IMG/VR virus record: IMGVR_UViG_3300025543_000126
Span: 1 to 31,510 of that record
Reading direction: 5' to 3' (one strand)
DNA length: 31,510 nt
From: a virus
Shown one piece after another: positions 2,949-19,294 of the stretch (positions are counted from its first letter, which is position 1; every line of letters starts with the position of its first letter). The translations under genes were made by a program, and so were the position numbers. The notes under the pieces were generated by a model. The model had not been told where the DNA came from and searched no databases. It worked only from the letters and a program-made list of their open reading frames with translations.

Positions 2949-3272
2949 TTAGTATGTCCAAATTACGTTTTGTGATTTATCTAAGTCGGAGTCAACATGG
3001 ATAAAGCTATCTGCTATTCCTATACGGCTGAATCCAACCGCTAATAAAGCGTCTACTATTAAAAAACGTGTTCTACTATCCTTTGCGCCTATATCTACCG
3101 CTAACCCTTTTATATGACTTGATGAAGGGTTTTTAATTGATAAAGGGTGTTCTGGACCTCTGTAAGCAGAATTAATTATAAAAGGTATATTAGCGTATTC
3201 TCTTGCCTCATCTAATTTAGCAAGAAAATCTACATTCATATTCTCTTCTTTGTCTTTAAAATATTTACTCAT
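2949..3272 (-). CDS. Peptidase M15-type endolysin (D,D/L,D-carboxypeptidase family)
   Basis: A 107-aa peptidoglycan peptidase of the M15 zinc family, cutting the peptide part of the cell wall for lysis. The zinc-site motifs are visible: SAYRGPEH (R38, substrate region), SSHIKGLAVDIG giving H53 and D60, and SFIHVDSD giving H92. The domain is compact and single, with no wall-binding module, as is usual for phage M15 lysins of this length. It overlaps the upstream holin-like gene by 8 bases, a typical lysis cassette. The start at 3272 is used; an internal ATG at 3239 (MNVDFLAKL) with an AAGAAGAG-like leader is an alternative that would keep the whole catalytic domain. Confidence 0.92.
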   Translation of the reverse strand: MSKYFKDKEENMNVDFLAKLDEAREYANIPFIINSAYRGPEHPLSIKNPSSSHIKGLAVDIGAKDSRTRFLIVDALLAVGFSRIGIADSFIHVDSDLDKSQNVIWTY

Positions 3273-3427: not shown

Positions 3428-6400
3428 CTATTCTCCTCTTTTGAATTTTCTTTTTTTAGCCGGTCGTTTCCAGCTACTTGGTACTCCAAATTTACTTTTT
3501 TTACCTTTAGTCTTAGATGTTTCTACCAGCCCTAAATCCCACTTACTATAACCTAAAGCAAGCGCTACAGATTGCCAAAACTTAGTGTCATTATCAACTG
3601 CTGTTCTTAAGTTATCGGCTTTTTTAATAACCCTATCTAAAGGTATGTTTGTCAATGCAGAAACAACTTGACCTCCTGCATATATAGCTGGATTGTCTAA
3701 GTTAAACCCTACCATTTTTTCTCTTGTAGTTTTAAAGCTAAAAGCCCTACCTGCGCTCATAAGTTTTCTAATCTTTGCAGATATAGGTGGTGATAGATCT
3801 AAAGATCTAATAGCTGCTTGAGTAAAATCTGGTTTAGGTTTTTTAGACTGCCTATCTATTTCTAAGTATATGTTTTTACCTGTAGATGCAATTGCGCCAT
3901 AGACTCCAACTCCTCTAAGAATACTGTCAAGCATTGAGTTAGCTATTCTTATTTCTTTATTATCAAGCTCTTCTTCATCGTCGTCAAACAAGGCTGAAAA
4001 TAAAGCTGTTTGTAGAGCGGAGAATATTATGTTTTGTACAAACATATAATAAGCTATCTTTGATATATTAGTTCTTTTATCTCCACGTCCGTTTTTAAGA
4101 TCCAAGAAAGCTTTTTTAGTTAATCTCATATATTGCATAGGGGTATTCGCAAATGCTAATATAATACGACCTAATGGACTAGCTTGTTGTTGAGATATTC
4201 TATCTGGTCTTGAAGACTGTTGTGTCTCTTCTGCTATCTCTTGAAAATCTAAGAACGCTTTATCCGTAGCTTCTGCTTCGGTCATGCCTTCTTTCTTAAG
4301 AGCGTTGATCCTGTTTCTTATAAATGAAGCACCACCCATTGCAATAGCGAAACTATCTGCCATTTGCGTAGGTAAGAATCCCATTTTTAATAACGAAGCT
4401 AAAACTGCTTTTGCTTTATTAGTAGAGGTTTCAGCAGCACTTGCAATATCATCAGCGTTGACGTCTGTTTTTAATCCGGATCTTCTTTGCTTTAAGAAAT
4501 CTGAATTAAATAGCATTGTAAAATCAGCCCAAAATTGTTTTTGATTTGCAAAAGCCATTGCTGCTTTAGCTGGATTGTTATCTCCCCAATTAATAAAGTT
4601 AGCTATAGACAATGTTTGAAGTAAAGCGGATCTTGTATTAAAAAACATGATAGTTCCTACGGAATCATTTACCCAATTCATAAACTTATTAGTAAGCTTG
4701 TTAGCTCCGGAAGGTCTGTTTCTACCAGTCTTCATTCGGTATAACATATCTTGTAAGGCTTCAACATAATTGTCTCCATAAGCAGCTCTAAGTTTATTTA
4801 GATTTTGCTCTGAAAATATTAAATCAGCATTAGCTTGCCATTCTTTAAGGAACTCTGCTCTTTTAGCGGTGTTAACCATGTTTATAGCATCTGTAGTTAT
4901 AGTGCCCGCGAGCCATTCTTTACTAGGCTCTGGGTAACCTTGTAAAGCAATATCAACTTCCTCTGCAAATCTTTTTAAAGCAGGGTTGTCATTAACTATT
5001 TTTATTAACTCCTTTTGATCAGTAGCGGTTAATCCGTCTATGTCGTGACCGTTCTTAACCCACAGGTACACTCTAACAGCTTGTTCATTTGTAAACCCTG
5101 TTTCATTAATTTTAGATAAACCTGAAGGTATATTTTTTATATCTTTTTTTAGCTTGGCTACAATTTTAGTTGCTCTTTGTTTATAAGCTTCAAAGTCTCT
5201 AATGCCTTTAGCAAAAGGATCAAAAAGTTTTTCTTTGAACCAAGCTGAGTCAAGATTTCCTTGTTCTTTTTTACCTAATAATCTATATAGTAACCCAGCA
5301 AAATCATCAGCTGAAGGTGGAATAAAGAATTTGAATCTACCTTTATTTCTACCTCTTACCTTACCTTTAGCTTTAGAAAATCTTTTATAAGTTTCAATTC
5401 CAGTAGCGCCTTCAATCATGTCATTGAACACTTCGTTCATTCCTTTAGAAAACTGAATATCAGATTCTTGAATTACAGACTTATCAAATACTACTATATT
5501 ACTAGTATACTCACCTGTTTGTAAATCAGTGTCAGTGAATTTAGAAGCCTTTATACCTTTCTTTTTAAGAGCTTTAGTTAATTTAGCTAAATCTTTTTTA
5601 GAAAAGGATTCTTGCTCAAATCTCGGGTCAATTAATTCGTATAAATGAAGTTCATCTACTTTATAACCTTTTGTTTTTGGTTGAATACCTAACTTTTCTA
5701 TTACTTCAAATACTTTTTCTTCTGAAACAACGTTTTCTGCTTTTATCACAAAGTTTTTAACTTCTCCGTAATTACCTTTAGCATATTCTGCAGCTTGAGC
5801 TTTATCTTCTGAAAAATAAACTATACCGTTTATGTCACCTGTTTTTTGTATATTTCCACCGTGGTAAATATCAACGCTAGACCCTTCGCTTTTAGAGAAT
5901 AATATTAAATCCAAAGGAGGTAAACCTGCTTCTTCAATAGCTTTTACAGCTCTAGGATCTTGGTATCTAGCTACGTATTCAGGAGTGCTTAGTATCATAT
6001 AACCTTTAGAGTCTACCGGTCCTTTTGAAATAAAGCTAGGTACGCTACCTATTGCGGTATCGTATGCTTTAGGAATAATAAAAACATTAAAACCTTCCAT
6101 TATTTGATCAAAAGTATGAGGGTAATTTTTGTCAGTTATTAATTTAGCTAATTGAGTTACTGTAAATGACGCCGCTTGAGAGTGCTCAAACCTAAAACTA
6201 TCATCTATCATTAAAGTATTTTTTAACAATTGCTTTGAATAGCCTGTTAACATTGCAGCCGTTCTGATTAACCCGTTAGTAGAAGAAGCAAGCGTACCTA
6301 GTATCATAGCTACTTGGTTATCGGTTAAATACTTATCGTTATAAGCCTTAGTCAATTCTTCTATTATGTTTTTTAGATTTAATCTTTGTTTTCGACTATA

Positions 6401-9400
6401 AGCTTTTCTATCTAAGATTGAGTATCTAGACGCGACTTCACCTCCAGAAAACATAGAACCATTTACAAAACCTTTAGGGCTTTGAGAAGGTACTTTATTT
6501 AGTTCAATTTCTTTCCCGTCTTGTTCAAATTTAGTTCTACCTTTTTTGTAGTCAACATTATTATATACTTTTTTTAGTAAATTAAAAAAATCAGTAGTTC
6601 CTGTTAATAGAAATCTATTAGTTCTCCATTTTTTTGTTTCTAAATCGTAAACTTTTAATAAGTTTCCGTTTTTTATTGTAACATATTTTTTACCTAAAAG
6701 ACCGTAGCTTCCTCTAGCGGTTCCTATAAACATATTAGCAACCATTTCAGCAGAAAAACCTTCTTTTTTAAAACTCCTAAATAATTTAACAAGCCCAGCT
6801 CTACCGGACTTTATTTGGTCTTTGCTAGTAAAATCTACTTGATCTTTATCTAATCCAAAAGCTTCTTTAAGCCCTTTGCTAAACTGAATTACATCAAAGC
6901 TAGCTTGTTCGTCTTTATACTTATCTAAAATAGATTCTAAGTTATTTAGCTGAGCTTCTAAAGCTATAGTATTAGCTATATCTATAGATGTTTCAGGAGC
7001 AAGCTCTTGTATAGATTTAAGTTCAGAAATATTTTCTACAGTAGCGTAATCAGCAACAACTTCTTTCGCTACAGGTCTGAGTATCTCCCTAAACAACTGT
7101 TTTTGTCTAGCTAAAAGCGTCCCGTAGTTACCATCTAAAAAGTATTGTAAAAAAGCTTTTGGTGTTGTAGGCTCTACCCTGAATATAGGATTACCTTCTG
7201 CTGTCTTTTCTCTACCTATTTTAGTTACTTTGAATAATTTGCTATAGTTACTTTTAAGCACTTTAATAGGTAAAGCTTTAGTAATTATATCAAAAGTATT
7301 TTTATCGTTTAAAAAGTCTATGTATGGGCCTGGTATACGAGTTTTCTGCTCTCCAGTAACCTTATCTTTTGTTTGACCCACAGCACCTAACTTTTTGCTT
7401 AATTTTTTAAACAATGTTTTTTCCACGTAGTCTTCAATCCAAGGCACTAAGGTTTCGTATGATTTACCTTTTACTTTTTGAGTGACCTTACGAGATTCTG
7501 ATAAGGTACCTTTTTGTGTTCTTACTCTTATTTCTTTTTCCAACTCTTTGGATATATCTTCGAGTAAAGCATCGTCAACTACTTCTAATTGATCAAAAGT
7601 AGCTTGACCTCTTTCTACAGCACCGCTTCTATCTACACTTACCTCATCTTCCGTAGCAACAACTCCTTTAGCCGCGTCTCCTTCTATATCTGATGTAAAC
7701 TCTTGATTAGCATCTTTAAACATTAAAGACTGTCTAGTCTGAACTATTTTCTTTACATAACCAGCTAAATCTTTGTTTTTAGCAGGATTAAATGTACGTA
7801 TAGCATTACTTACCTCAGCTCTTAGTATAGACAAAGCGTCTTGAAATTCTAGAGCTTCAGGGCTTGCTTGTTTAAACTTTTGTTGTACAATAGTATTAAT
7901 ATAACCTTCAAATAAAGGTATTAATTTTCTTTCTAAAGAAGCTGGTAGTGGTTTATTAGCTTTATATTCAGGTCTATCAACACCTTCCATGTCTTCATTG
8001 TAAGTAGACATTATTTTTTTAGATATAGGATCTCTAGGTCCTAAGTCTGTGGTTCTTGTAGGTTTTTCAGGTCTTGCAATTTTTTCTTTAGGTTTAACTT
8101 CTTTTTTAATCTCAGGTACAACTGCTGGTGGAGCTTTTGCTGCCGCTTCAGCCTCATCTAATTCTCTTTCAGCTTTATCGATGTTATCCAAATAACTGGG
8201 ATTATCAGGGTCTGCATCCATAGCTGCGTCTAAAGCTGCCTCTGCTTCAGTTATAGTTTTAGAGAACTGCTCTTCATTACTTACCGCTTCTGCTTCGGAA
8301 ACTTTTACCCCTGTTTCTTTTTCTCTTTTAGCTATGGCTTCTGTTGTTTTTTCAGAAAGATTACCTGATTTTACACTTTCAGAATAAGATTTCATAAAAT
8401 TATAAACACCTCTTCCGCTTACAAAGTCTATGTTGTCAAAACCTTTGTTAATAAATGTTTTGGTTACCCAATCTTTTATTTTACCAAAAGAATTTCTTTC
8501 AAAATTTATACGATTTTTAACTAAGCCTTCAGAAAAAACAGTAATATACTCGTTATAATATTCCTGAGTTCCTTCTACTTTACCTTGTTTTTTAAGCTCT
8601 TGCTTTACCCAAACAGCTTGCTCCTTGCTTAACTCTTTTTCGAAACCTTGCACTACGCTTTTTTGAGCTTTTGCATTACCTACTAAAGCGCTTAATATAG
8701 AGTGGAGTACTTCGTGACTACCAACACCTATAGCCCCTAATTTTTTTGATTGCTTGGAATTTATTAATATGCCCCCTTTACCTATAAAAACTCCGTTGGA
8801 TCCTTTCAAACTTCTTTCTACGTCACCTCTTGTTACGGTAGGCGTCTGCTTCACTCTTTTTGCATATACAGCATCAATATACTCTTCAAAAGTTTTAAAA
8901 CCAAGGCTATTAGCAATAGCTTGTTCATAAGAGGAATCGCTATTAAGTATCTGAAGACCTTCACTGATGTTTAATTTAGCAGCTGCGGCTTTAGTGAATG
9001 CCATATTATCTCCAAAGTTTTCTTTTAAAACCTTATCAAAAATAGTTTGATTTTCATTTATTAAATTGTTTATATCGTTTTTTACGTCTTGAGCATTTTT
9101 ACCTTCTTTTAAAATATTTATTTTGTCAACGTTTTTTGCGTAATCCATTAAATCCTTGCCTTGAAGGTTATCCAAGACCATTTGGTTTTTAATAGAGATG
9201 GTTTGGAGTTTTTTCTTTAAATCATTATTTAAACCTTGTAAAACGTCCGCTTTCTTTTGATTACCTCCTTCTTTAGCTAATTTTATTTGATTGTTTTTTT
9301 CTACAATTTTTTTGAATAATTCTTTTTGAGTCTTTCTTTCGCTAGCAGGCATTAACAAAAACTCAGCTCTAGCTTTTAAAGTAGCATTACCTCGAGTAGC

Positions 9401-10732
9401 TGAAGCAATACCAGCAATTCCACCCCCAGAAAAACCGCCTATTATACCCTCATCTATGATTTCAAAAGCATCTTCCATTATTTTGCTTTTTGAATTTTCA
9501 TAAACTTCTGATATATTATTAGAGTCTCCTAACCAAAGTTCATCGTTTATTTTTGTAGCTATACTTTGTCCCATTTCAGTAAGACTTTCTTTACCCCCAA
9601 GGCCTACCACATCCATTATTTTTCTACCGATACCTTTGTTCATTTCGTTTAATGCTTTTTCTGCATTTCCTTTAAAGTTTTTACCCTTTAAAAGGCCTTT
9701 TGCTCTAAACATTCTTCGGCTAATCAGAGAGTCTATCATTTCAATTCCCCCAGTAGTAGCAGCGTTACCTGTTATTTTCCATAATTCTTTGTCTGGGTTT
9801 TTTTCATATTCCTCTACAAACTTATCGTTTGATATGGCAAAACCTAAAGCAGCAGCTGTGTAAGGATTTAAAGCAGCTAAAGTATAAGGCGAGCTAGTTA
9901 AAGCCCCCGCGAATATTCTACCTCCAACTTCTCCCCAATCTGCTTTACTTCCCTTTAATATTTCTTCTGAAATAGTATTATCGTGAACAGTTATGTGCTC
10001 GTTTAGTTTTTCAGTAATTTTACTTACTCCTTTTCTTGTAAGCTGAGGAGCTGTAATAGCAATTATGTTGTCTAGGTATGTATTAGTAGCTTTAGCTGAT
10101 GCTGCTATAATTTCTTTCTCTTCTGGGGTAGCTGATCTACCTTTATCTAAGTAGTTATATCCTTCCATTCCAAGAGTAAGCAATGTTTCTCTACCGTCAA
10201 CAATTAAATCGTCTACTAATATTTTTGCAACAGTATTTACTGCTCCAGGTATCCCCTCAATTGCATTTCCAAAAAACCCCTTAGGGTTTTCTTTTACACC
10301 TCTTACTATAGAGTACGTCTTGCTTGGATTGTCAGGTGCTGCTTCATTAGATTCTGAATCTTTTATAGCTTTTGTTGAGTCTACAACACCATCAATTCCA
10401 GCTTCTATCATATCATAAACCGGCGACATTTTTTTAAGCACACTTACAGCTTTACTTAGAAAACCCGATGAACCATTTTCCGATGCTGAATCCATACTGT
10501 TTTGATTTGACTCCACAGCTGGATCCGCACTTGCAGAGTCGTTTGTCTTTGCTACATCGCTGCTAAAGAATTGGCCGCTAAAGTCTTCGAAAGATTTAGT
10601 GTAGTCACCTGTGCTTTCTAATGCTCCGTATAGTTTTTCCTGTCCTTCCTTAGATCCAAACTGTGTTTGAAAGTCTTCAAAAGATTTAGTGTATTTACCC
10701 TGTTCAGAAAGTGATTTGAATAATTTTTCCAT
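3428..10732 (-). CDS. Giant 2434-aa polyvalent virion/cargo protein (HExxH, ART-like domain, FSK repeats)
   Basis: The largest gene of the window. Residues 3-25 and 33-55 are a tandem repeat ending in YTKSFEDFxxQF. Residues 60-95 are a Ser/Asp/Ala linker. Residues 668-682 contain HEVLH, an HExxH zinc-metallopeptidase signature, with acidic candidates for a third ligand around residues 724-736. Residues 830-895 are an Ala/Glu/Pro/Lys linker. Residues 1622-1757 resemble the ADP-ribosyltransferase-like domain of phage polyvalent proteins (IYHGG, VYFSEDKAQAAEYA, IVVFDKSVI). FSK occurs at residues 823, 1284, 1612, 1710, 1761 and 1785. Hydrophobic segments lie near 430-446, 2026-2049 and 2226-2249. 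The C-terminus has NIPLDRVIKKADNL and ALALGYSKWDLG, which I associate with giant virion proteins of marine phages. Its place just after the other cargo candidates and before the lysis genes suggests a protein packed in the virion and ejected with the DNA. It ends with TAG. Function of most of the length is unknown. Confidence 0.85.
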   Translation of the reverse strand: MEKLFKSLSEQGKYTKSFEDFQTQFGSKEGQEKLYGALESTGDYTKSFEDFSGQFFSSDVAKTNDSASADPAVESNQNSMDSASENGSSGFLSKAVSVLKKMSPVYDMIEAGIDGVVDSTKAIKDSESNEAAPDNPSKTYSIVRGVKENPKGFFGNAIEGIPGAVNTVAKILVDDLIVDGRETLLTLGMEGYNYLDKGRSATPEEKEIIAASAKATNTYLDNIIAITAPQLTRKGVSKITEKLNEHITVHDNTISEEILKGSKADWGEVGGRIFAGALTSSPYTLAALNPYTAAALGFAISNDKFVEEYEKNPDKELWKITGNAATTGGIEMIDSLISRRMFRAKGLLKGKNFKGNAEKALNEMNKGIGRKIMDVVGLGGKESLTEMGQSIATKINDELWLGDSNNISEVYENSKSKIMEDAFEIIDEGIIGGFSGGGIAGIASATRGNATLKARAEFLLMPASERKTQKELFKKIVEKNNQIKLAKEGGNQKKADVLQGLNNDLKKKLQTISIKNQMVLDNLQGKDLMDYAKNVDKINILKEGKNAQDVKNDINNLINENQTIFDKVLKENFGDNMAFTKAAAAKLNISEGLQILNSDSSYEQAIANSLGFKTFEEYIDAVYAKRVKQTPTVTRGDVERSLKGSNGVFIGKGGILINSKQSKKLGAIGVGSHEVLHSILSALVGNAKAQKSVVQGFEKELSKEQAVWVKQELKKQGKVEGTQEYYNEYITVFSEGLVKNRINFERNSFGKIKDWVTKTFINKGFDNIDFVSGRGVYNFMKSYSESVKSGNLSEKTTEAIAKREKETGVKVSEAEAVSNEEQFSKTITEAEAALDAAMDADPDNPSYLDNIDKAERELDEAEAAAKAPPAVVPEIKKEVKPKEKIARPEKPTRTTDLGPRDPISKKIMSTYNEDMEGVDRPEYKANKPLPASLERKLIPLFEGYINTIVQQKFKQASPEALEFQDALSILRAEVSNAIRTFNPAKNKDLAGYVKKIVQTRQSLMFKDANQEFTSDIEGDAAKGVVATEDEVSVDRSGAVERGQATFDQLEVVDDALLEDISKELEKEIRVRTQKGTLSESRKVTQKVKGKSYETLVPWIEDYVEKTLFKKLSKKLGAVGQTKDKVTGEQKTRIPGPYIDFLNDKNTFDIITKALPIKVLKSNYSKLFKVTKIGREKTAEGNPIFRVEPTTPKAFLQYFLDGNYGTLLARQKQLFREILRPVAKEVVADYATVENISELKSIQELAPETSIDIANTIALEAQLNNLESILDKYKDEQASFDVIQFSKGLKEAFGLDKDQVDFTSKDQIKSGRAGLVKLFRSFKKEGFSAEMVANMFIGTARGSYGLLGKKYVTIKNGNLLKVYDLETKKWRTNRFLLTGTTDFFNLLKKVYNNVDYKKGRTKFEQDGKEIELNKVPSQSPKGFVNGSMFSGGEVASRYSILDRKAYSRKQRLNLKNIIEELTKAYNDKYLTDNQVAMILGTLASSTNGLIRTAAMLTGYSKQLLKNTLMIDDSFRFEHSQAASFTVTQLAKLITDKNYPHTFDQIMEGFNVFIIPKAYDTAIGSVPSFISKGPVDSKGYMILSTPEYVARYQDPRAVKAIEEAGLPPLDLILFSKSEGSSVDIYHGGNIQKTGDINGIVYFSEDKAQAAEYAKGNYGEVKNFVIKAENVVSEEKVFEVIEKLGIQPKTKGYKVDELHLYELIDPRFEQESFSKKDLAKLTKALKKKGIKASKFTDTDLQTGEYTSNIVVFDKSVIQESDIQFSKGMNEVFNDMIEGATGIETYKRFSKAKGKVRGRNKGRFKFFIPPSADDFAGLLYRLLGKKEQGNLDSAWFKEKLFDPFAKGIRDFEAYKQRATKIVAKLKKDIKNIPSGLSKINETGFTNEQAVRVYLWVKNGHDIDGLTATDQKELIKIVNDNPALKRFAEEVDIALQGYPEPSKEWLAGTITTDAINMVNTAKRAEFLKEWQANADLIFSEQNLNKLRAAYGDNYVEALQDMLYRMKTGRNRPSGANKLTNKFMNWVNDSVGTIMFFNTRSALLQTLSIANFINWGDNNPAKAAMAFANQKQFWADFTMLFNSDFLKQRRSGLKTDVNADDIASAAETSTNKAKAVLASLLKMGFLPTQMADSFAIAMGGASFIRNRINALKKEGMTEAEATDKAFLDFQEIAEETQQSSRPDRISQQQASPLGRIILAFANTPMQYMRLTKKAFLDLKNGRGDKRTNISKIAYYMFVQNIIFSALQTALFSALFDDDEEELDNKEIRIANSMLDSILRGVGVYGAIASTGKNIYLEIDRQSKKPKPDFTQAAIRSLDLSPPISAKIRKLMSAGRAFSFKTTREKMVGFNLDNPAIYAGGQVVSALTNIPLDRVIKKADNLRTAVDNDTKFWQSVALALGYSKWDLGLVETSKTKGKKSKFGVPSSWKRPAKKRKFKRGE
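10568..10726 (-). repeat. Tandem 30-residue repeat at the N-terminus of the giant protein
   Basis: Two copies of a roughly 23-residue unit start exactly 30 residues (90 bases) apart: residues 3-25 and 33-55 of the giant protein. Shared residues are KL(F/Y)xxLxxxGxYTKSFEDFxxQF. The DNA is also conserved: a 23-base stretch beginning AAGTCTTC at 10581-10603 recurs at 10671-10693 with one mismatch. This points to a recent or selected duplication of a short helical unit. Confidence 0.9.
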
Positions 10733-10736
10733 TTAA

Positions 10737-12164
10737 TTAAAGATTGTCTAATGAACCTCCTTTAGCAGAAGAGTTTTTGTTATTATTAGATTTGTTTGAT
10801 TTTGTAGACTTAGTGTAGTTGTCGAATTGACCTCTGAAGTAATTTGCTGCCTTGCCTGACAAGTCTGAGCTTTGTATATAAAGATCGTATAATTCTCTAG
10901 GATCATTTACATTGACAGATAACGGCCTAGATTCACCCGTATATGTTGGATTAAACTTAAATATTTGAGTGTTACCGTATTTTTTCTTAAATTGAGAAAC
11001 AGCTTCTTCTCTACTATCATAATCATCTGCTTCTACAAAATAATCAAACATTTGACCTCTGGATATATAAGGTCTTTCATTAGAAGTAGGGTCTATATTA
11101 TTTATAGCCTGAATTATAGCTTGTGTTTTTTGTTCTGTTTGTTCGCTAGTTGCTTTAATATTTGCTATAGAAGCAAAATTAACAGCGTCCCTAGCAACAA
11201 CAGGTTCAGCTAATCTTATTTCGTCGTTTAAAGCACCTGTAAAACCACTAGACCCTCCTTTTGTAGCTGGTCTTTTATCCGCAGCTCCTTGAGCGGCTGT
11301 ATCAGACAAAGCGTCCATATAGCTATCTAATACTTTTGCTGAAAGTAAATCTTCATTGCCTGGTTCAAAAATAGATGGATCTTGTAAGTTTAATCCGCCT
11401 TCAATAAGAAAATCATCAGAAGCTAAGGAAAGTAAAGTGTCTCTACCTCCGGAGTTTATCATGTTTTTTAACTTATTGCGCAACATACCTCTTCGAGCAC
11501 CACTTAAAGATTGCCCTGCTGTATATACAGATTCGTTTAATTTTAATAAATTATCAGCTGCTTTAAAATCTTTTAGAAAAGGTTTTTGTATAGAGCTGTA
11601 GTTTTCATATTCATTTTTGTTACCGTTCCAAAAAACAACTTGCCCCCCTGGGCCAACTCCCATTTCTCCTTCATCAGTATACAGATTAGCAGCTTCATTT
11701 AAAGATCCTATGTCATTACCGTCTGATATTCGTTTATTATCAAAATCTTTTAAGTATGATATTTTATCCTCCTTAAAACCTTTAATTTGTGATGCTAAAT
11801 TACCAAAAGACCTTTGGACACCGTTCATTTTACTTACAAGATCAAGGTATCTAGAGTCTGACGGATCTTCTATTTTAGCTATTTCTGAAGCATAGCCTGC
11901 GTATTTATTTCTATTCTCAACTAAGTAATTTGAAACTGCATTTTGCTGAGATGATGTTAACTCAGTTAAATCAATATCAGAATTTAACCTATTAATATAA
12001 GTTCCTACCTTGTTGTTAATAGCTTTTTTTTCCGCTATATTCCTTGCTTTAGTAATAGCTCCAGCTTGCAAACCTGAACTTAAACCTTCTTGAAAGCTTT
12101 GCGCCCAGTTCTGTTGATTGCTTTGACCAAGCTTAGCCTCTCCTGCTATTAATCCTTTATTCAT
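10737..12164 (-). CDS. Putative internal virion/cargo protein, 475 aa
   Basis: Not recognised as a named family. The protein is hydrophilic and mainly helical. The N-terminus (residues 1-55) is rich in Gln, Ala and Asn (GQSNQQNWAQSFQEGLSSGL), an amphipathic style seen in ejected virion proteins. Residues 70-145 and 195-300 look helical with many charged residues. The last 30 residues are a low-complexity Ser/Asn/Lys tail (STKSNKSNNNKNSS). It ends 4 bases before the giant protein gene and starts 18 bases after the 218-aa gene, inside the run of virion genes. Its place between ejection-type proteins suggests it travels in the particle. No enzymatic motif was seen. Confidence 0.72.
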   Translation of the reverse strand: MNKGLIAGEAKLGQSNQQNWAQSFQEGLSSGLQAGAITKARNIAEKKAINNKVGTYINRLNSDIDLTELTSSQQNAVSNYLVENRNKYAGYASEIAKIEDPSDSRYLDLVSKMNGVQRSFGNLASQIKGFKEDKISYLKDFDNKRISDGNDIGSLNEAANLYTDEGEMGVGPGGQVVFWNGNKNEYENYSSIQKPFLKDFKAADNLLKLNESVYTAGQSLSGARRGMLRNKLKNMINSGGRDTLLSLASDDFLIEGGLNLQDPSIFEPGNEDLLSAKVLDSYMDALSDTAAQGAADKRPATKGGSSGFTGALNDEIRLAEPVVARDAVNFASIANIKATSEQTEQKTQAIIQAINNIDPTSNERPYISRGQMFDYFVEADDYDSREEAVSQFKKKYGNTQIFKFNPTYTGESRPLSVNVNDPRELYDLYIQSSDLSGKAANYFRGQFDNYTKSTKSNKSNNNKNSSAKGGSLDNL

Positions 12165-12182
12165 ATTATTAATATATTTTTA

Positions 12183-12839
12183 TTAAACCACAGCGTTTTT
12201 TCCAAAAGCCACAGCGTTTTCTCCAATCTTGTCTGTAAACTTTTTAAACCCTTCTCCAAGAACTCCTCCTCCAATTGCACCCCCTACAAGTCCACCAACA
12301 CCGCCTACTATAGAGCTCGTAGCTGCTTGCCTAGCTGCGTTAGCTGCACCTAATCTTTGCTGAGACATCCCAAGCATTGTACTTGCTTTTTCATTTTCAG
12401 CATCCCTAGATATTAATTCACCTTTTGCTTCATATAGCTGTAGCTTTCCGGCTTGTTGCCTTTCAGCCATTTGATTTGCTTGTTCTTGTCTACCTATATC
12501 TAAAGAAGCTTGTCTTGTTTGTTGCTGTTGTTGACCTGCTAACGCTTGAGCCATTGCCGCAATACCAGATCCACCAGCTGCTCCTTGCATTCCACCCATA
12601 ACATTAGCTATTCCTTGGCTAGCTTGTTCTGCTTGAAATCTAGCTTGATCTTGGTTAACAGTCAAGTCTTCCATTGTGTTCTCCATATTAGCATATACAT
12701 TGGAGGTATCTAATCCTTCAAACTTAGATTTATTTCTATCGTATTCCGCTTGAGCTTCTCTTTGTTCTCTTTTTCTTTTCCCGCTACCGATAATACCACT
12801 AGCTATACCGGTTAACCCGCCTAGTACTTTCCCTACCAT
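12183..12839 (-). CDS. Gly/Ala/Gln-rich DNA-ejection-type internal virion protein
   Basis: A 218-aa protein with a composition typical of podovirus ejection proteins. Residues 1-20 are a Gly-rich hydrophobic stretch (KVLGGLTGIASGIIGSG), then a basic KRKREQREAQ segment. A Gln/Ala-rich helical middle (residues 60-170, with a QQQQQ run at 103-107) leads to a glycine-zipper segment at residues 176-195 (SIVGGVGGLVGGAIGGGVLG). Two glycine-zipper ends around a long polar helix suit a protein that inserts in or crosses the cell envelope. Similar proteins sit after the tail-tube genes in marine podoviruses and are compared with P22 gp7 or T7 internal proteins. The exact role in this phage is inferred. 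Confidence 0.72.
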   Translation of the reverse strand: MVGKVLGGLTGIASGIIGSGKRKREQREAQAEYDRNKSKFEGLDTSNVYANMENTMEDLTVNQDQARFQAEQASQGIANVMGGMQGAAGGSGIAAMAQALAGQQQQQTRQASLDIGRQEQANQMAERQQAGKLQLYEAKGELISRDAENEKASTMLGMSQQRLGAANAARQAATSSIVGGVGGLVGGAIGGGVLGEGFKKFTDKIGENAVAFGKNAVV

Positions 12840-12871: not shown

Positions 12872-13198
12872 TTATTTACTGCTTTCAAACACCTCAGTAC
12901 CAACAGAAAACAATTCGACTTTACCCGTAGAATCATTTTCCATTTTAGTTTCTAAGAAATAGCCTTTTAAAGATCCAGTATTTGCTGCGTTTGTTTTACT
13001 AAACAAAATAAAAGAACTATTTGTAGGTCTTACTACTTCATTTGGTATTTCTGCTGTTATAGATGTTCCAGTCAATGCTGTTATAGCTCCTATTTGCACT
13101 ATACTCTCTCCATTGAGGTCGTTAGTGTAGTAAGCGGTATCTCCTATTTGAACAGAAGTTTGAATTTTATTTGCAAAATTTATTGTTATTGATCCCAT
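12872..13198 (-). CDS. Conserved small virion-associated protein, 108 aa
   Basis: A beta-rich 108-aa protein without a recognised domain. The N-terminus GSITINFANKIQTSVQIGDTAYY and the C-terminal LFSVGTEVFESSK are the kind of segments that recur in a small family I associate with marine phages, always among virion genes. No transmembrane segment or catalytic motif is visible. It is preceded by a very clear leader (AAAAAAATAAATAT before ATG at 13198) and sits between the adhesin and the ejection-type protein. A minor tail or head-completion component is the simplest guess. Confidence 0.7.
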   Translation of the reverse strand: MGSITINFANKIQTSVQIGDTAYYTNDLNGESIVQIGAITALTGTSITAEIPNEVVRPTNSSFILFSKTNAANTGSLKGYFLETKMENDSTGKVELFSVGTEVFESSK

Positions 13199-14701: not shown

Positions 14702-17700
14702 TTAAGGATTTGTAAAACAAGAAGGATCAACAAATACTCTAACGTTAAATACGCTAGGTGTTATATCTCCTGTTATGGAAGTTGGTTTACCAATACCTTG
14801 AACAGAAAACTCGCTTGTATTAATGTTTGATATAGTAGTAGCTTCTCCTTTTATATTATTAAAATATTTACCCTCTTTGTCTATAAATTCAGGTACGTTA
14901 CCTATTTGTAAATTAGTTTTAGTACTTTCAACAAACCATCCTTTTGTAGAAACCACACTGGTAGGAGCTGGTCCTCCGTTAGATTTTATAGCTTGAATTT
15001 CGTTAAAAGAATAATTAACACCAGTGTAAGGACTACTCGCAATGCTATACACATTCTTTCGAGGAGCGGTACCTGTGTAGTTAATCGTTTTAAAGCCTTT
15101 TACGGAATTAAAATCTGAATTAGAAAGTAATGTTATAGAGCTGTTATATTGAACTCCGTAGAAGTTGTTATACAAAGTATTTTTACCATGCTCATAAATT
15201 AACCCATTATTAAAAGTATAAAGCTTAGTGTTAAGTGATATACCGTTTTCTGGCGTATACGATTTTCTACTAGACCAACCGTTTAAATCTTCATTAAAAG
15301 ATATTGTAGTTTTGCTACCTACTTTAGCAGACCATTCAGAATCTAAAGAACTTAAAGATACATTGTAGGTCCCTGTGTCGGTGTCGTAAAAACCAAAAAC
15401 GTTGCTATTTAAAGGTAGATTATCTTGGAAAAAATCATCCATTCCATAATTACTAATAATAGTAACACCGTCTGTTGAAAGCCTAAGTACTTTTCCTTTA
15501 GCTTTATCTGTAAAGTATACCCTATAAGCGTATTGAGCAAAAGACTCTGGGTTTTTGCCAATTCCGAACATGCCAAAACTAGAAGGTATCATAGCTTGAC
15601 CTAAAACTCTATTCGATGCTGTTAATTGCGTGTTGCCATTAGCGTTAAATATAGCGTCTTTATCAGCTAAAACTTTTACAACTTTATCTTCACAAAAAAC
15701 TAATAAATCAGTTTCTCTTGCAAACAGCTTTTGTATAGGTCCACTTTGAGGATCTAAGGTTTTAGTAATTGCTTCACCTTGTATAAATTGATTTAGTTCG
15801 TTTAAGCCTGAAGTTGAATTAAATATACCAGAGAATATAAGGTTGTTTTTTAACTGCTCTTCTTCGTAGGCTTTGTCTAACACAGCATTAGCTTTAGTAC
15901 CTGTTTTTATATAAGGAGCATTAAAATCATCTCTAATTCTGTTGGATTCTACACCGTTTCCGAAAGAATAACAATTAAACCAAGGACTTAAGTGCTGGTT
16001 GTTGTACTGTGAAATAGGTATTGAGTCCGAAATTTCATAATATATATCTAATTCAGCTTGTTCTGCTGGCTCTGTTTCAAAAATAGCTGGACTTGATGAT
16101 GATATTTCACCGTTATCAACTTGTTTTAATATGTCAATAGTAACACCCACCCGAGCCCCTCCTCCTGGAAAAATTTGTTTTCCATTTACAAACACAGGGT
16201 TGGCTCCACCGCTTCCTGCAGCATAAGCTATTTGATAAGGAGATATAGAAGCTTCTAAAGGCTTATCTAATCTAGTGTAATATCTTGTAAAATTAGTTTT
16301 TTGCTCTTGGAGATATTCATGGATATACATTATTTCGTATATTGTATCGTGAGTAGAAAACCTAATTTTAGCACCTACCCTATATCCATTGCCAAAATCA
16401 GCAGCCCCTCGGCTTGTTTCTTTTTTTTCAAAAACAAAATCCCAAGGTTCTCCTGAGTCAAGCCCTTCAGGAATAGTGCTAAAATCATTTCTACGAAGAC
16501 CCCCTTCTTCGTTTGTTCTGTGGCTAAACCCACTGCCTAACCCACCTAAAAATTTGATAGTATTATAGTTTAATCTAGTAGCGCTACCTATTTGAGTTCC
16601 TGCAGCATTTTGCAACGCACCACCCCCACCTGAATATATCGTGTAACGATCATTATCATAACCAACACCAACTATAGTTGTGATAGCGGGTATAAATTCT
16701 TGATTAGGTGAAAAATTAGCCATTAAATTATTTGACTTTTCTAATCTTATAAAAAATCTACCTTCGTATTGTCCTTTACCTAAAGTAGCTATATCTTTAG
16801 CTATTTCTATTCTATTCTCATCAAATGTAAACAAAGGAGAGGTTGGGCTTTCTGGATCAGTATATAAAAAATTTATATCAGTAGTAAAAGGTCTGTCTAT
16901 AATAACTCTTAATTCTAAAGATCCATCAGGGTCTGTATCAATACTTTTTATTTCATAATATTGACTTTCATGCGCAGCGTCTAAAAACCTAACATAATTG
17001 CCAGCTTTCCAGTATTCAAAAGTTTCATCTGAAACACCACCGGTTCCATCGCCTCCCTCACTGTCTATTAAAAATACGTTATAACCAGGCACAGGTGTAG
17101 ATCCAGCTAGTTTAGTCGTTTGAACATCCCCTGATCCAAAAGATTGATCAAAAGAATAAAGTTTAGTAGAAACTACTTGCCTATTTTTAATTAATTCGCT
17201 AGGGGCTTCTGATTTTTTTGTTAAAACTTTAAATTTATTTTCAGGATAATTATTTACAGCTGCATCAGAATCGTTTTGCTTTTTTAGTATTAAAAAATCG
17301 CCTTCTTTAATTTTGTTAGTTTCAGCAGAGGGTATAGAAATCCACACACTCTCACCGTCTTCGGATTCATATAAACGATCAGCAACCACGTTGTAGTATT
17401 CAGCAGAAGGATCTTTTATGAAAAACTTAAAAGTATCAAACATTTCAGAACCGTCAAGATTCTTAGGGCTCAGTGAAGATATTTTAGCCTTTATAGCATT
17501 GCTAGAATGTGAAAAGTCATTTGTAATATCTATTACACCAGAAGGGTCTGTAAAAACAGGGGTTTCACGACCGTATTTATCTCTGTATACAATACCTAAT
17601 TGGTATGTTCTAATGGCTTTTATAGACTTAGATGGCCCACCGATAGTAATTATAGGTGTTTGACTAACTAATGTATTTGCTGGATCAAATTGTATATAAG

Positions 17701-19294
17701 AAGATACGTTATAATTTTGTAAGTAATTACCATATATTATCCTATTAGATATAGCTTCTTGAGATTGAGCTTTTCTAGGTACATTATCCCATGGTCTAAT
17801 TATTTGATTAGCTGGTACTAGAGAGTATATTAGTTCACTTATAACCTCAAAAACTGTACCTAAAGAAGTATTTTCTATTACAACATTTGTAGCAGAAGAC
17901 GGACTTAAAGTTCCATCTTCTGCTATAACATTTATAGTTTGCAATGATAGAACAGTTACAGACTGTTGAGTTCCTTTTGTATTGTTGAAAGTAAAATTAA
18001 CAGAGCTAGAGTCGTTGTTTGTTATTTTATGATCTACATAGTTTACACTTAAATCTTCAGGTAATAGACTTTCTACTTTATACACAGCAGGATTACTATC
18101 TTCCTTGTATAATATATCTAGTTCTATTACATCCGCAGGCAAAGGGGAATCAAATCCACCTAATATAATTCTTTTTACACCGTTTGTCATACCTTTATTC
18201 CAACCACTTTTAGCATTGTACTCAAAGTTATTAGGTAAAAAAGCTATCTCTGAAAAAGGAGAAAAAGGCGAGTATTGATTGTCTTTATATTTATATCTAT
18301 AGCCAAATCTAGGGAGTTTTAGCTCAAAAATAGTTCTTGTACCAGCGAGCTCTATATTATATGTAAACGTTCCTTTTATTAATTCAGTTGTACCGCTTTG
18401 AATAGTACCGTTAAGTACAGTGCCACCTAATGTTAAAGAGTTTACACTTATGCTAAAAATATATACATCAGCTTCTCCGTCAGAATCAACAGGAAGGAAA
18501 CCTTCAGAGCTAGGGGAACCGCACGTGAAATTAAGAGTATCTCCTGCATCTACACTTATAGATGAACCTAAATTTATTGAAACAACAGAACCGACTTCAG
18601 GTGATGAGTTGAGAGCTCCAGCGGTGCCACCAGTGGTAAAATCATGTGCAGTTGTGGTGCTAGTGTTACCTGTACCTAAGTTTTTACTTAATGTTAATAA
18701 AGGTTGCTTTAAAGGCGCTGGTTTTATAACTACTATATCTCTTTCAATAAAGTTTCTACCGTATATTTGCGAGTGAGTTGCGAAATTTGTTGTAGAATTT
18801 CCCCATTCTTTTAAGTTTATTTTTTTCGGCTCTTCCTTGTTGTCTGTCCAGAAAAGTAAATCTTCTATTATATTTATACCTGTAATCAAATAATCTTTAG
18901 AAAACTTTAATATGTTTTGGCTATCTACTAATATAGGTGTAATTATATCTGTATTTTTATCATACGATGCAATAGCACTAATGCTGTCGGAAGCTATAAA
19001 CCAGTATATTTTTTCATTAACACTATCTGTTATAGATCCAATACAAACAGGATTTGTTAAAGCGTTGTTTATATAGCCTGAGCTCCACTCTGTGTATACA
19101 TTAGTGGAAGCATTTAAAGCTTTATTTTTTAGCTCTAAATTACCTTTTATGTTTTCTACAGCACCTGAATCACTACCTTCAGAAACAGATACGTTTATGT
19201 TCAAAGCATCTCTATATAAGCCGTTGGGAACTAACCTTTCATCAAGGTCTTTGTTCATTTTACCTCCGGTAAACGTGTGTACAATCTCTGGCAT
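14702..19294 (-). CDS. Large tail-tube/muzzle protein (podovirus tail tubular B / P22 gp10-like)
   Basis: A 1530-aa virion protein. The N-terminus reads MPEIVHTFTGGKMNKDLDER then LVPNGLYRDALNINV and GAVENIKGN, a signature of the large tail-tube ('stabilisation', 'muzzle') proteins of crAss-like and marine podoviruses. Later parts are beta-rich with segments expected of a propeller-bearing tube-tip protein (GIVYRDKYGRETPVFTDPSG; RVYFTDKAKGKVLRLSTDG; SRKSYTPENG). These proteins form the distal tail tube below the ring proteins and may hold the tail tip. It follows the second ring protein with a 3-base gap and precedes the adhesin. The length is large for T7 gp12 (about 800 aa) but normal for crAss-like muzzle-type proteins. 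Confidence 0.82.
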   Translation of the reverse strand: MPEIVHTFTGGKMNKDLDERLVPNGLYRDALNINVSVSEGSDSGAVENIKGNLELKNKALNASTNVYTEWSSGYINNALTNPVCIGSITDSVNEKIYWFIASDSISAIASYDKNTDIITPILVDSQNILKFSKDYLITGINIIEDLLFWTDNKEEPKKINLKEWGNSTTNFATHSQIYGRNFIERDIVVIKPAPLKQPLLTLSKNLGTGNTSTTTAHDFTTGGTAGALNSSPEVGSVVSINLGSSISVDAGDTLNFTCGSPSSEGFLPVDSDGEADVYIFSISVNSLTLGGTVLNGTIQSGTTELIKGTFTYNIELAGTRTIFELKLPRFGYRYKYKDNQYSPFSPFSEIAFLPNNFEYNAKSGWNKGMTNGVKRIILGGFDSPLPADVIELDILYKEDSNPAVYKVESLLPEDLSVNYVDHKITNNDSSSVNFTFNNTKGTQQSVTVLSLQTINVIAEDGTLSPSSATNVVIENTSLGTVFEVISELIYSLVPANQIIRPWDNVPRKAQSQEAISNRIIYGNYLQNYNVSSYIQFDPANTLVSQTPIITIGGPSKSIKAIRTYQLGIVYRDKYGRETPVFTDPSGVIDITNDFSHSSNAIKAKISSLSPKNLDGSEMFDTFKFFIKDPSAEYYNVVADRLYESEDGESVWISIPSAETNKIKEGDFLILKKQNDSDAAVNNYPENKFKVLTKKSEAPSELIKNRQVVSTKLYSFDQSFGSGDVQTTKLAGSTPVPGYNVFLIDSEGGDGTGGVSDETFEYWKAGNYVRFLDAAHESQYYEIKSIDTDPDGSLELRVIIDRPFTTDINFLYTDPESPTSPLFTFDENRIEIAKDIATLGKGQYEGRFFIRLEKSNNLMANFSPNQEFIPAITTIVGVGYDNDRYTIYSGGGGALQNAAGTQIGSATRLNYNTIKFLGGLGSGFSHRTNEEGGLRRNDFSTIPEGLDSGEPWDFVFEKKETSRGAADFGNGYRVGAKIRFSTHDTIYEIMYIHEYLQEQKTNFTRYYTRLDKPLEASISPYQIAYAAGSGGANPVFVNGKQIFPGGGARVGVTIDILKQVDNGEISSSSPAIFETEPAEQAELDIYYEISDSIPISQYNNQHLSPWFNCYSFGNGVESNRIRDDFNAPYIKTGTKANAVLDKAYEEEQLKNNLIFSGIFNSTSGLNELNQFIQGEAITKTLDPQSGPIQKLFARETDLLVFCEDKVVKVLADKDAIFNANGNTQLTASNRVLGQAMIPSSFGMFGIGKNPESFAQYAYRVYFTDKAKGKVLRLSTDGVTIISNYGMDDFFQDNLPLNSNVFGFYDTDTGTYNVSLSSLDSEWSAKVGSKTTISFNEDLNGWSSRKSYTPENGISLNTKLYTFNNGLIYEHGKNTLYNNFYGVQYNSSITLLSNSDFNSVKGFKTINYTGTAPRKNVYSIASSPYTGVNYSFNEIQAIKSNGGPAPTSVVSTKGWFVESTKTNLQIGNVPEFIDKEGKYFNNIKGEATTISNINTSEFSVQGIGKPTSITGDITPSVFNVRVFVDPSCFTNP

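Follow-up and report, generated by a model that had tools for sequence, protein, structure and literature searches.

We asked what the giant protein is that a phage in the IMG/VR collection encodes next to its virion genes, and what its parts tell us about its use. The window, that is, the whole stretch of DNA that was analysed, comprises 31,510 nucleotides (record IMGVR_UViG_3300025543_000126, positions 1 to 31,510). An earlier note, made from the sequence alone, had described a 2434-aa polyvalent cargo protein that carries several enzyme-like parts, and had suggested that it enters the cell with the phage DNA. We come to a similar view: with a probability of roughly 0.7, this is a delivered polyvalent cargo protein, in effect a string of effectors. 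Furthermore, we describe a short peptide that recurs at the junctions between its modules and that may be where the cargo chain is cut apart or docked.

Genomic setting

The cargo gene (P0001, 3428..10732) is a real, single open reading frame of 2434 aa, as had been proposed; what had been left unstated is its direction, which is the minus strand (10732→3428), and all features of the protein given below lie on that strand. The same-strand gene order is large terminase, portal, scaffold-like gene, capsid, two tail-type structural proteins, a 1530-aa structural protein, small genes, a 218-aa gene, a 475-aa gene and the giant gene, which is followed by a small gene with one hydrophobic segment and then by a gene of an endolysin family (2949..3272, minus strand). 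The 218-aa neighbour (12183..12839, minus strand) is rich in Gly, Ala and Gln and is, after iteration, homologous to the virion protein gp099 of Cellulophaga phage phi40:1; its family has members in phi40:1, phi13:2, Panino and elemoF. The 475-aa neighbour (10737..12164, minus strand) stands at the position of phi40:1 gp100, to which we found no sequence link. The earlier placement of the gene beside ejection-type genes and before the lysis genes thus holds, with a virion-type family on one side and an endolysin family on the other.

In PHROGs, a 108-aa product encoded at 12872-13198 of the window hits the same families as the structural protein of 1530 aa (14702-19294); with an iterated profile it also matches large structural proteins of relatives, and it is perhaps a detached domain.

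The terminase is 62% identical to that of the uncultured phage MW202828 and 44% to those of Flavobacterium Elemovirus phages, and the portal also matches Maribacter phage Panino, Cellulophaga Callevirus (Pervagoviridae) and Pachyviridae phages. The window phage is of a marine flavobacterial type, kin to the Elemovirus, Callevirus and Pachyviridae flavophages. In five out of five annotated relatives examined, a giant gene (1691 to 3859 aa) is found at the same place. Membership in the Crassvirales was considered and found to be without support; the tail, portal and capsid proteins gave no phmmer match in PDB.

Probable packaging in the virion

The giant syntenic gene of phi40:1, gp101, carries the GenBank note 'experimental MS/MS proteomics analysis', and so do gp099 and gp100. 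A helical domain of the window protein (residues 276-449, 9386..9907) is shared with gp101. Its profile, built from IMG/VR relatives only, finds Panino gp69 and elemoF gp18 directly (E about 1e-13); phi40:1 gp101 and phi13:2 gp127 join the family only after profile iteration, and their E-values are inflated by inclusion. Because of the MS/MS annotation, the common domain and the synteny, it is likely, on grounds of homology and gene order, that the window protein is packaged as well. That it is instead made late in the cell and stays unpackaged is very improbable, given a gene within the structural block and a syntenic counterpart annotated as a virion protein by MS/MS. We infer that the packaged protein would be delivered into the cell with the DNA.

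The relatives were collected from IMG/VR. A first search matched 190 stretches, of which 80 were kept (80 loci), and a profile search found 463 relatives of the cargo protein. Two further C-terminal-module relatives, L089 and L090, are in contigs of an Aliivibrio MAG and are probably stray phage contigs.

Domains of the cargo protein

Taken as a whole, the protein has no match in Pfam or PHROGs and no meaningful phmmer match in PDB. The mean pLDDT of both structural models is about 58, and the ART region is modelled poorly. Profiles and alignments within the family resolve the chain into the following parts.

The N-terminus holds two copies of a tag (unit 1, residues 2-27, 10652..10729; unit 2, residues 32-57, 10562..10639). 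Sixteen of 26 positions are identical and the BLOSUM62 score is 78, above all of 2000 shuffles (maximum 45), so that the duplication reported earlier is real. Across the 80 relatives, the N-termini comprise several unrelated short tag types, many of them followed by sequence rich in Ser, Asp and Glu; these varied tags may be alternative packaging signals.

Residues 619-796 (8345..8878) form a zincin-like metallopeptidase domain. The HExxH motif that had been pointed out before (H673-E674-x-x-H677, 8702..8716) and the third ligand E728 (8549-8551) are invariant across 24 aligned sequences, and HExxH is kept in all 68 homologous peptidase domains. Eight of the ten proteins that lack the standard domain hold another HExxH. 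The motif with its downstream Glu marks the domain as zincin-like, and its secondary structure fits the zincin fold (a sheet plus two helices) at moderate model confidence and without a PDB match.

The middle of the protein had been taken for a long linker-rich region. We see that it consists mostly of domains: a sigma-region-2-like domain, a family-specific domain and a swappable module. The first of these (residues 938-1008, 7709..7921) resembles region 2 of sigma-70 and was missed in the earlier note. Foldseek matches it to the N-terminal domain of SigE (probability 0.97, TMt 0.70), though the length of the query chain makes the E-value poor (2.4); the top match in a profile search of PDB sequences is a sigma factor (E 1.4e-4). 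An hhalign comparison with a sigma alignment gives 73.8%, compared with at most 1.2% for shuffles and at most 0.4% for windows of the C-terminal module. The helices of sigma-70 regions 2.1-2.2 are present. Since the alignment covers only about 38 columns and the Pfam score for Sigma70_r2 (12.1 bits) is below the curated cut-off of 24, we call the domain sigma-region-2-like and not a sigma factor. The second, family-specific domain (residues 1099-1285, 6878..7438) is of unknown function and occurs in 25 of 78 relatives.

The ADP-ribosyltransferase (ART) domain claimed for the protein is found at residues 1619-1752 (5477..5878). It matches Pfam ART-PolyVal (PF18760) at E 8e-6, and because its 27.1 bits fall just short of the curated cut-off of 31.2, the name ART-PolyVal-like is used. 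For the His of a His-Tyr-Asp active site the candidate is H1624, which lies within an HGG context common to the relatives L001, L002 and L006.

Near the end of the chain lies a conserved helical C-terminal module (residues 1761-2402, 3527..5452), present in 80 of 80 loci in a search that itself favoured this module. Hydrophobic C-terminal helices had been described here; the predicted structure is indeed all-helical, and hydrophobicity typical of a membrane helix is confined to one segment (residues 2230-2249, 3986-4045). The predicted fold has 47 BFVD matches at E<=1e-3, several of them named ART-PolyVal or LPD, so in its modelled fold the C-terminal half is akin to polyvalent proteins of the ART-PolyVal and LPD types, whose structures are likewise predictions; a Foldseek comparison of this half with PDB gave no match. 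An identification of the module as LPD38 (PF18857) by sequence was rejected (hhalign probability 0.1%).

Exchange of modules between relatives

The order of the recognised frame domains is the same in every protein, with no violations in a new set of 15 further proteins, while the modules vary. The clearest example is a module at residues 1287-1610 (5903..6874). Between the window and its nearest relative, L001, the DNA is 94% identical over residues 1613-2434, the proteins are 74% identical before residue 1286, and residues 1287-1610 are unrelated; the exchange is bounded by VIQFSK on one side and by [F/A]SK-SE on the other. By this alignment, a 324-aa module has been swapped exactly between two junction peptides. 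An IMG/VR search found no relative of the module as a whole and the loci hold no close one; its second half is like a recurrent EHxxPA-type family that is found in 26 relatives (hhalign 89%).

Other relatives carry different parts in the slot before the C-terminus, such as a HAD-phosphatase-like domain, which was recognised by the motifs DFDDT and DD in its sequence and matched no Pfam HAD family, in some cases with a nested zeta/polynucleotide-kinase domain. For example, an ART is nested in the HAD-phosphatase-like domain of L006 (residues 1698-1999), and a zeta/polynucleotide-type kinase in that of L033 (residues 2441-2801); these inserts suggest kinase-phosphatase modules of a repair type. 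A further swappable module, with the FSK peptide before it, is present in L015, L016, L017, L033 and L068, and L033 and L068 show its signature NPWC[IL]CARD. In summary, the proposal of a polyvalent cargo protein with separate domains agrees with what we see: each domain is separate from the others, and relatives have swapped them independently.

Could the protein be mainly an ejection or channel protein like T7 gp16, in which the enzyme-like domains are remnants without effector roles? The gene adjoins the virion-type 218-aa gene, the helical domain is common across flavophages and there is a hydrophobic C-terminal helix, all of which would suit such a role. However, HExxH is retained wherever the homologous domain occurs, and the catalytic-type modules have been swapped and not decayed, which makes this explanation unlikely.

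A peptide at the junctions

The peptide [IVLMA][QKR]FS[K/R] occurs in 102 strict copies in 78 proteins. In the window protein we find IQFSK at residues 1282-1286 (6875..6889) and again at 1759-1763 (5444..5458), along with the variants EQFSK at 821-825 (8258..8272) and ILFSK at 1610-1614 (5891..5905). FS[KR] alone occurs 251 times, compared with 85 expected from composition, and [IVLM][QK]FS[KR] is seen in 17 non-redundant contexts, compared with 0 to 4 for permuted or substituted patterns. The density of the peptide is 4.99 per 10,000 residues, about 13 times that in other ORFs of the same loci (0.38).

Only one of the 102 strict sites is inside a recognised domain, although domain interiors make up 45% of the residues; two profile edges were cut near the peptide, so that edge positions are partly by construction, which leaves the interior count unaffected. 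The joints that carry it are those between peptidase and next domain, between the 1099-1285 domain and the module, between module and HAD, between HAD, ART or module and the C-terminal module, and before the kinase. Fifteen further proteins, new to the analysis and of the same family, which makes them a check short of full independence, contain 15 sites, none of them interior, compared with 0-5 for controls.

Potentially, the peptide could be a DNA recombination hotspot that shuffles modules and has no function in the protein. Forty of 128 three-prime breakpoints do lie near FS[KR], whereas 5.8 +/- 2.4 are expected at random. However, its serine is encoded by both codon families (AGY in 47 and TCN in 33 of 80 sites), so it is the peptide and not the DNA that is conserved; this speaks strongly against the reading as a recombination site. 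A protein-level pattern is also seen in L024, in which seven of seven junction sites are FS[E/Q], and in its sister L023, in which four of four are FSE; a concerted change from K to E at seven junctions of one protein is not what a hotspot would give, and we regard this explanation as highly unlikely. When L023 and L024 are left out, the concordance test gives no significant result for K/R/E/Q (P 1.0) and a marginal one for a wider class (P 0.03), and we therefore count the switch as one evolutionary event, though one that touched several unrelated junctions.

The association of the peptide with the family has limits. The strict form is missing from 29% of the proteins with a standard zincin, and L031, L038, L048 and L065 combine the peptide with a different HExxH stretch. 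The FSK peptide is absent from the five cultured or named giant proteins examined, and D[VI]RFSLR turned up in a single one of six proteobacterial LPD38 proteins, in two copies; for these reasons we make no general claim. The carrier is the L105 protein (residues 2114 and 2669, one copy just after an ART-PolyVal match), which hints at a similar peptide beyond the clade of the window. In L080, the cargo gene is directly preceded by a separate ORF of 938 aa (5867-8683) that has the same LQFSK peptide and is possibly part of a split polyvalent gene.

What the peptide may do

We prefer a role in processing, because the peptidase motif is almost never lost and because Q/FSK would suit this enzyme class: a hydrophobic residue after the cut suits a zincin in general. 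Processing at the junctions, perhaps by the peptidase of the cargo protein itself, is plausible. That the peptide is a cleavage site is a tentative reading, to which we would give a little less than an even chance, and that the built-in zincin does the cutting there is doubtful. We are similarly sceptical of the full scheme, in which [IVLMA][QKR]FS[K/E] would be a processing signal read by the zincin and the virion would hold a self-cleaving polyprotein of swappable effectors. Under self-cleavage the cutter and its site would co-evolve, as the all-FSE lineage suggests.

On the other hand, the peptide may serve as a docking motif or as a linker of stereotyped form. It might attach to a virion protein, for instance, or lie against the last strand of each module, and the cargo protein would then work as an intact chain. 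The peptide is common and not universal, it occurs together with different HExxH stretches, and a shared binding partner would also explain the concerted switch from K to E. There is a precedent in the virion RNA polymerase of phage N4, a polyvalent protein with a peptidase domain that is packaged uncut (PMC5512222). However, a peptidase motif that is kept almost always is hard to explain without a substrate, and fixed positions between unrelated modules fit release equally well. Docking in an intact chain is a serious rival, with the odds somewhat against it.

Under the preferred reading, that of a delivered effector string, the cargo polypeptide would be packaged in the head, near the portal, and would leave it together with the DNA or before it. 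The frame is fixed: a variable N-terminal tag, then the helical domain and the zincin peptidase, in many cases the sigma-region-2-like domain, and at the end a helical C-terminal module of 650 aa. It carries exchangeable enzyme cassettes: the ART in the window and, in the relatives, HAD-phosphatase-like domains, kinases of the polynucleotide/zeta type or a HAD-like domain with an ART inside it. The cassettes are joined by [IVLMA][QKR]FS[K/R or E], which would be read by a common partner, most likely a peptidase; the candidate is the built-in zincin, which might free the cassettes in maturation or once inside the cell. Set free, these parts could act as infection begins, with host RNA polymerase as the target of the sigma-like one and host proteins as the targets of the ART.

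Comparison with known systems

One close parallel is the class of polyvalent proteins described by Iyer et al. in 2017 (PMC5512222), which are believed to equip a phage for the opening minutes of infection. Like the window protein, they unite many unrelated domains in one chain and have a zincin peptidase, an ART-PolyVal-like domain, a large helical C-terminal domain and genes beside virion genes. Several marks of the class are found here: one polypeptide combines disparate activities, two or more being asked for (peptidase, ART-like, sigma-like), its gene lies among the virion and late genes of a mobile element, and its C-terminal fold is common with known polyvalent proteins (predicted structures, BFVD). 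A further mark, transfer into the host with the DNA, is presumed here, the virion evidence coming from a distant relative, phi40:1. Unlike those proteins, the window family has the recurring junction peptide and, in relatives, a HAD-like domain with a nested kinase or ART. In a search of that paper's text, neither a sigma-like domain nor FSK/FSR nor linkers came up.

A second parallel is phi40:1 gp101 (Callevirus, Pervagoviridae), together with the giant genes that occupy the same place in the same gene order in phi13:2, elemoF, Panino and MW202828. The 276-449 domain is common to phi40:1, phi13:2, elemoF and Panino, and the zincin profile matches only elemoF and MW202828 among these syntenic genes; unlike the window protein, these cultured or named giants have no detectable homologue of the C-terminal module and no FSK peptide. 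The cargo proteins gp45/46/47/49/50 of PhicrAss001 (PMC10172136) are likewise large and helical; they reside in the head and the tail and are presumed to leave the particle in a partly unfolded state. We found no sequence link between them and the window protein. The N4 virion RNA polymerase (PMC5512222) is also a giant protein that is injected, has a peptidase domain and takes part in the start of transcription. Unlike in N4, no RNA polymerase module was found in the window protein, only the sigma-region-2-like segment, which suggests another way, besides the polymerase that N4 brings along, to start phage transcription from the virion.

Why polyvalent proteins carry a peptidase has been an open question since 2017, and a peptide at the joints of unrelated modules is a testable candidate for the point where they are cut or held, as well as a marker of module borders. 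The exchangeable slot ties ADP-ribosylation and kinase/HAD modules of the polynucleotide-repair type into one delivery frame. We did not find the junction peptide, the sigma-like domain or the nested exchange slot in the open-licence papers searched. The polyvalent class is already established; these three features seem to be new to it.
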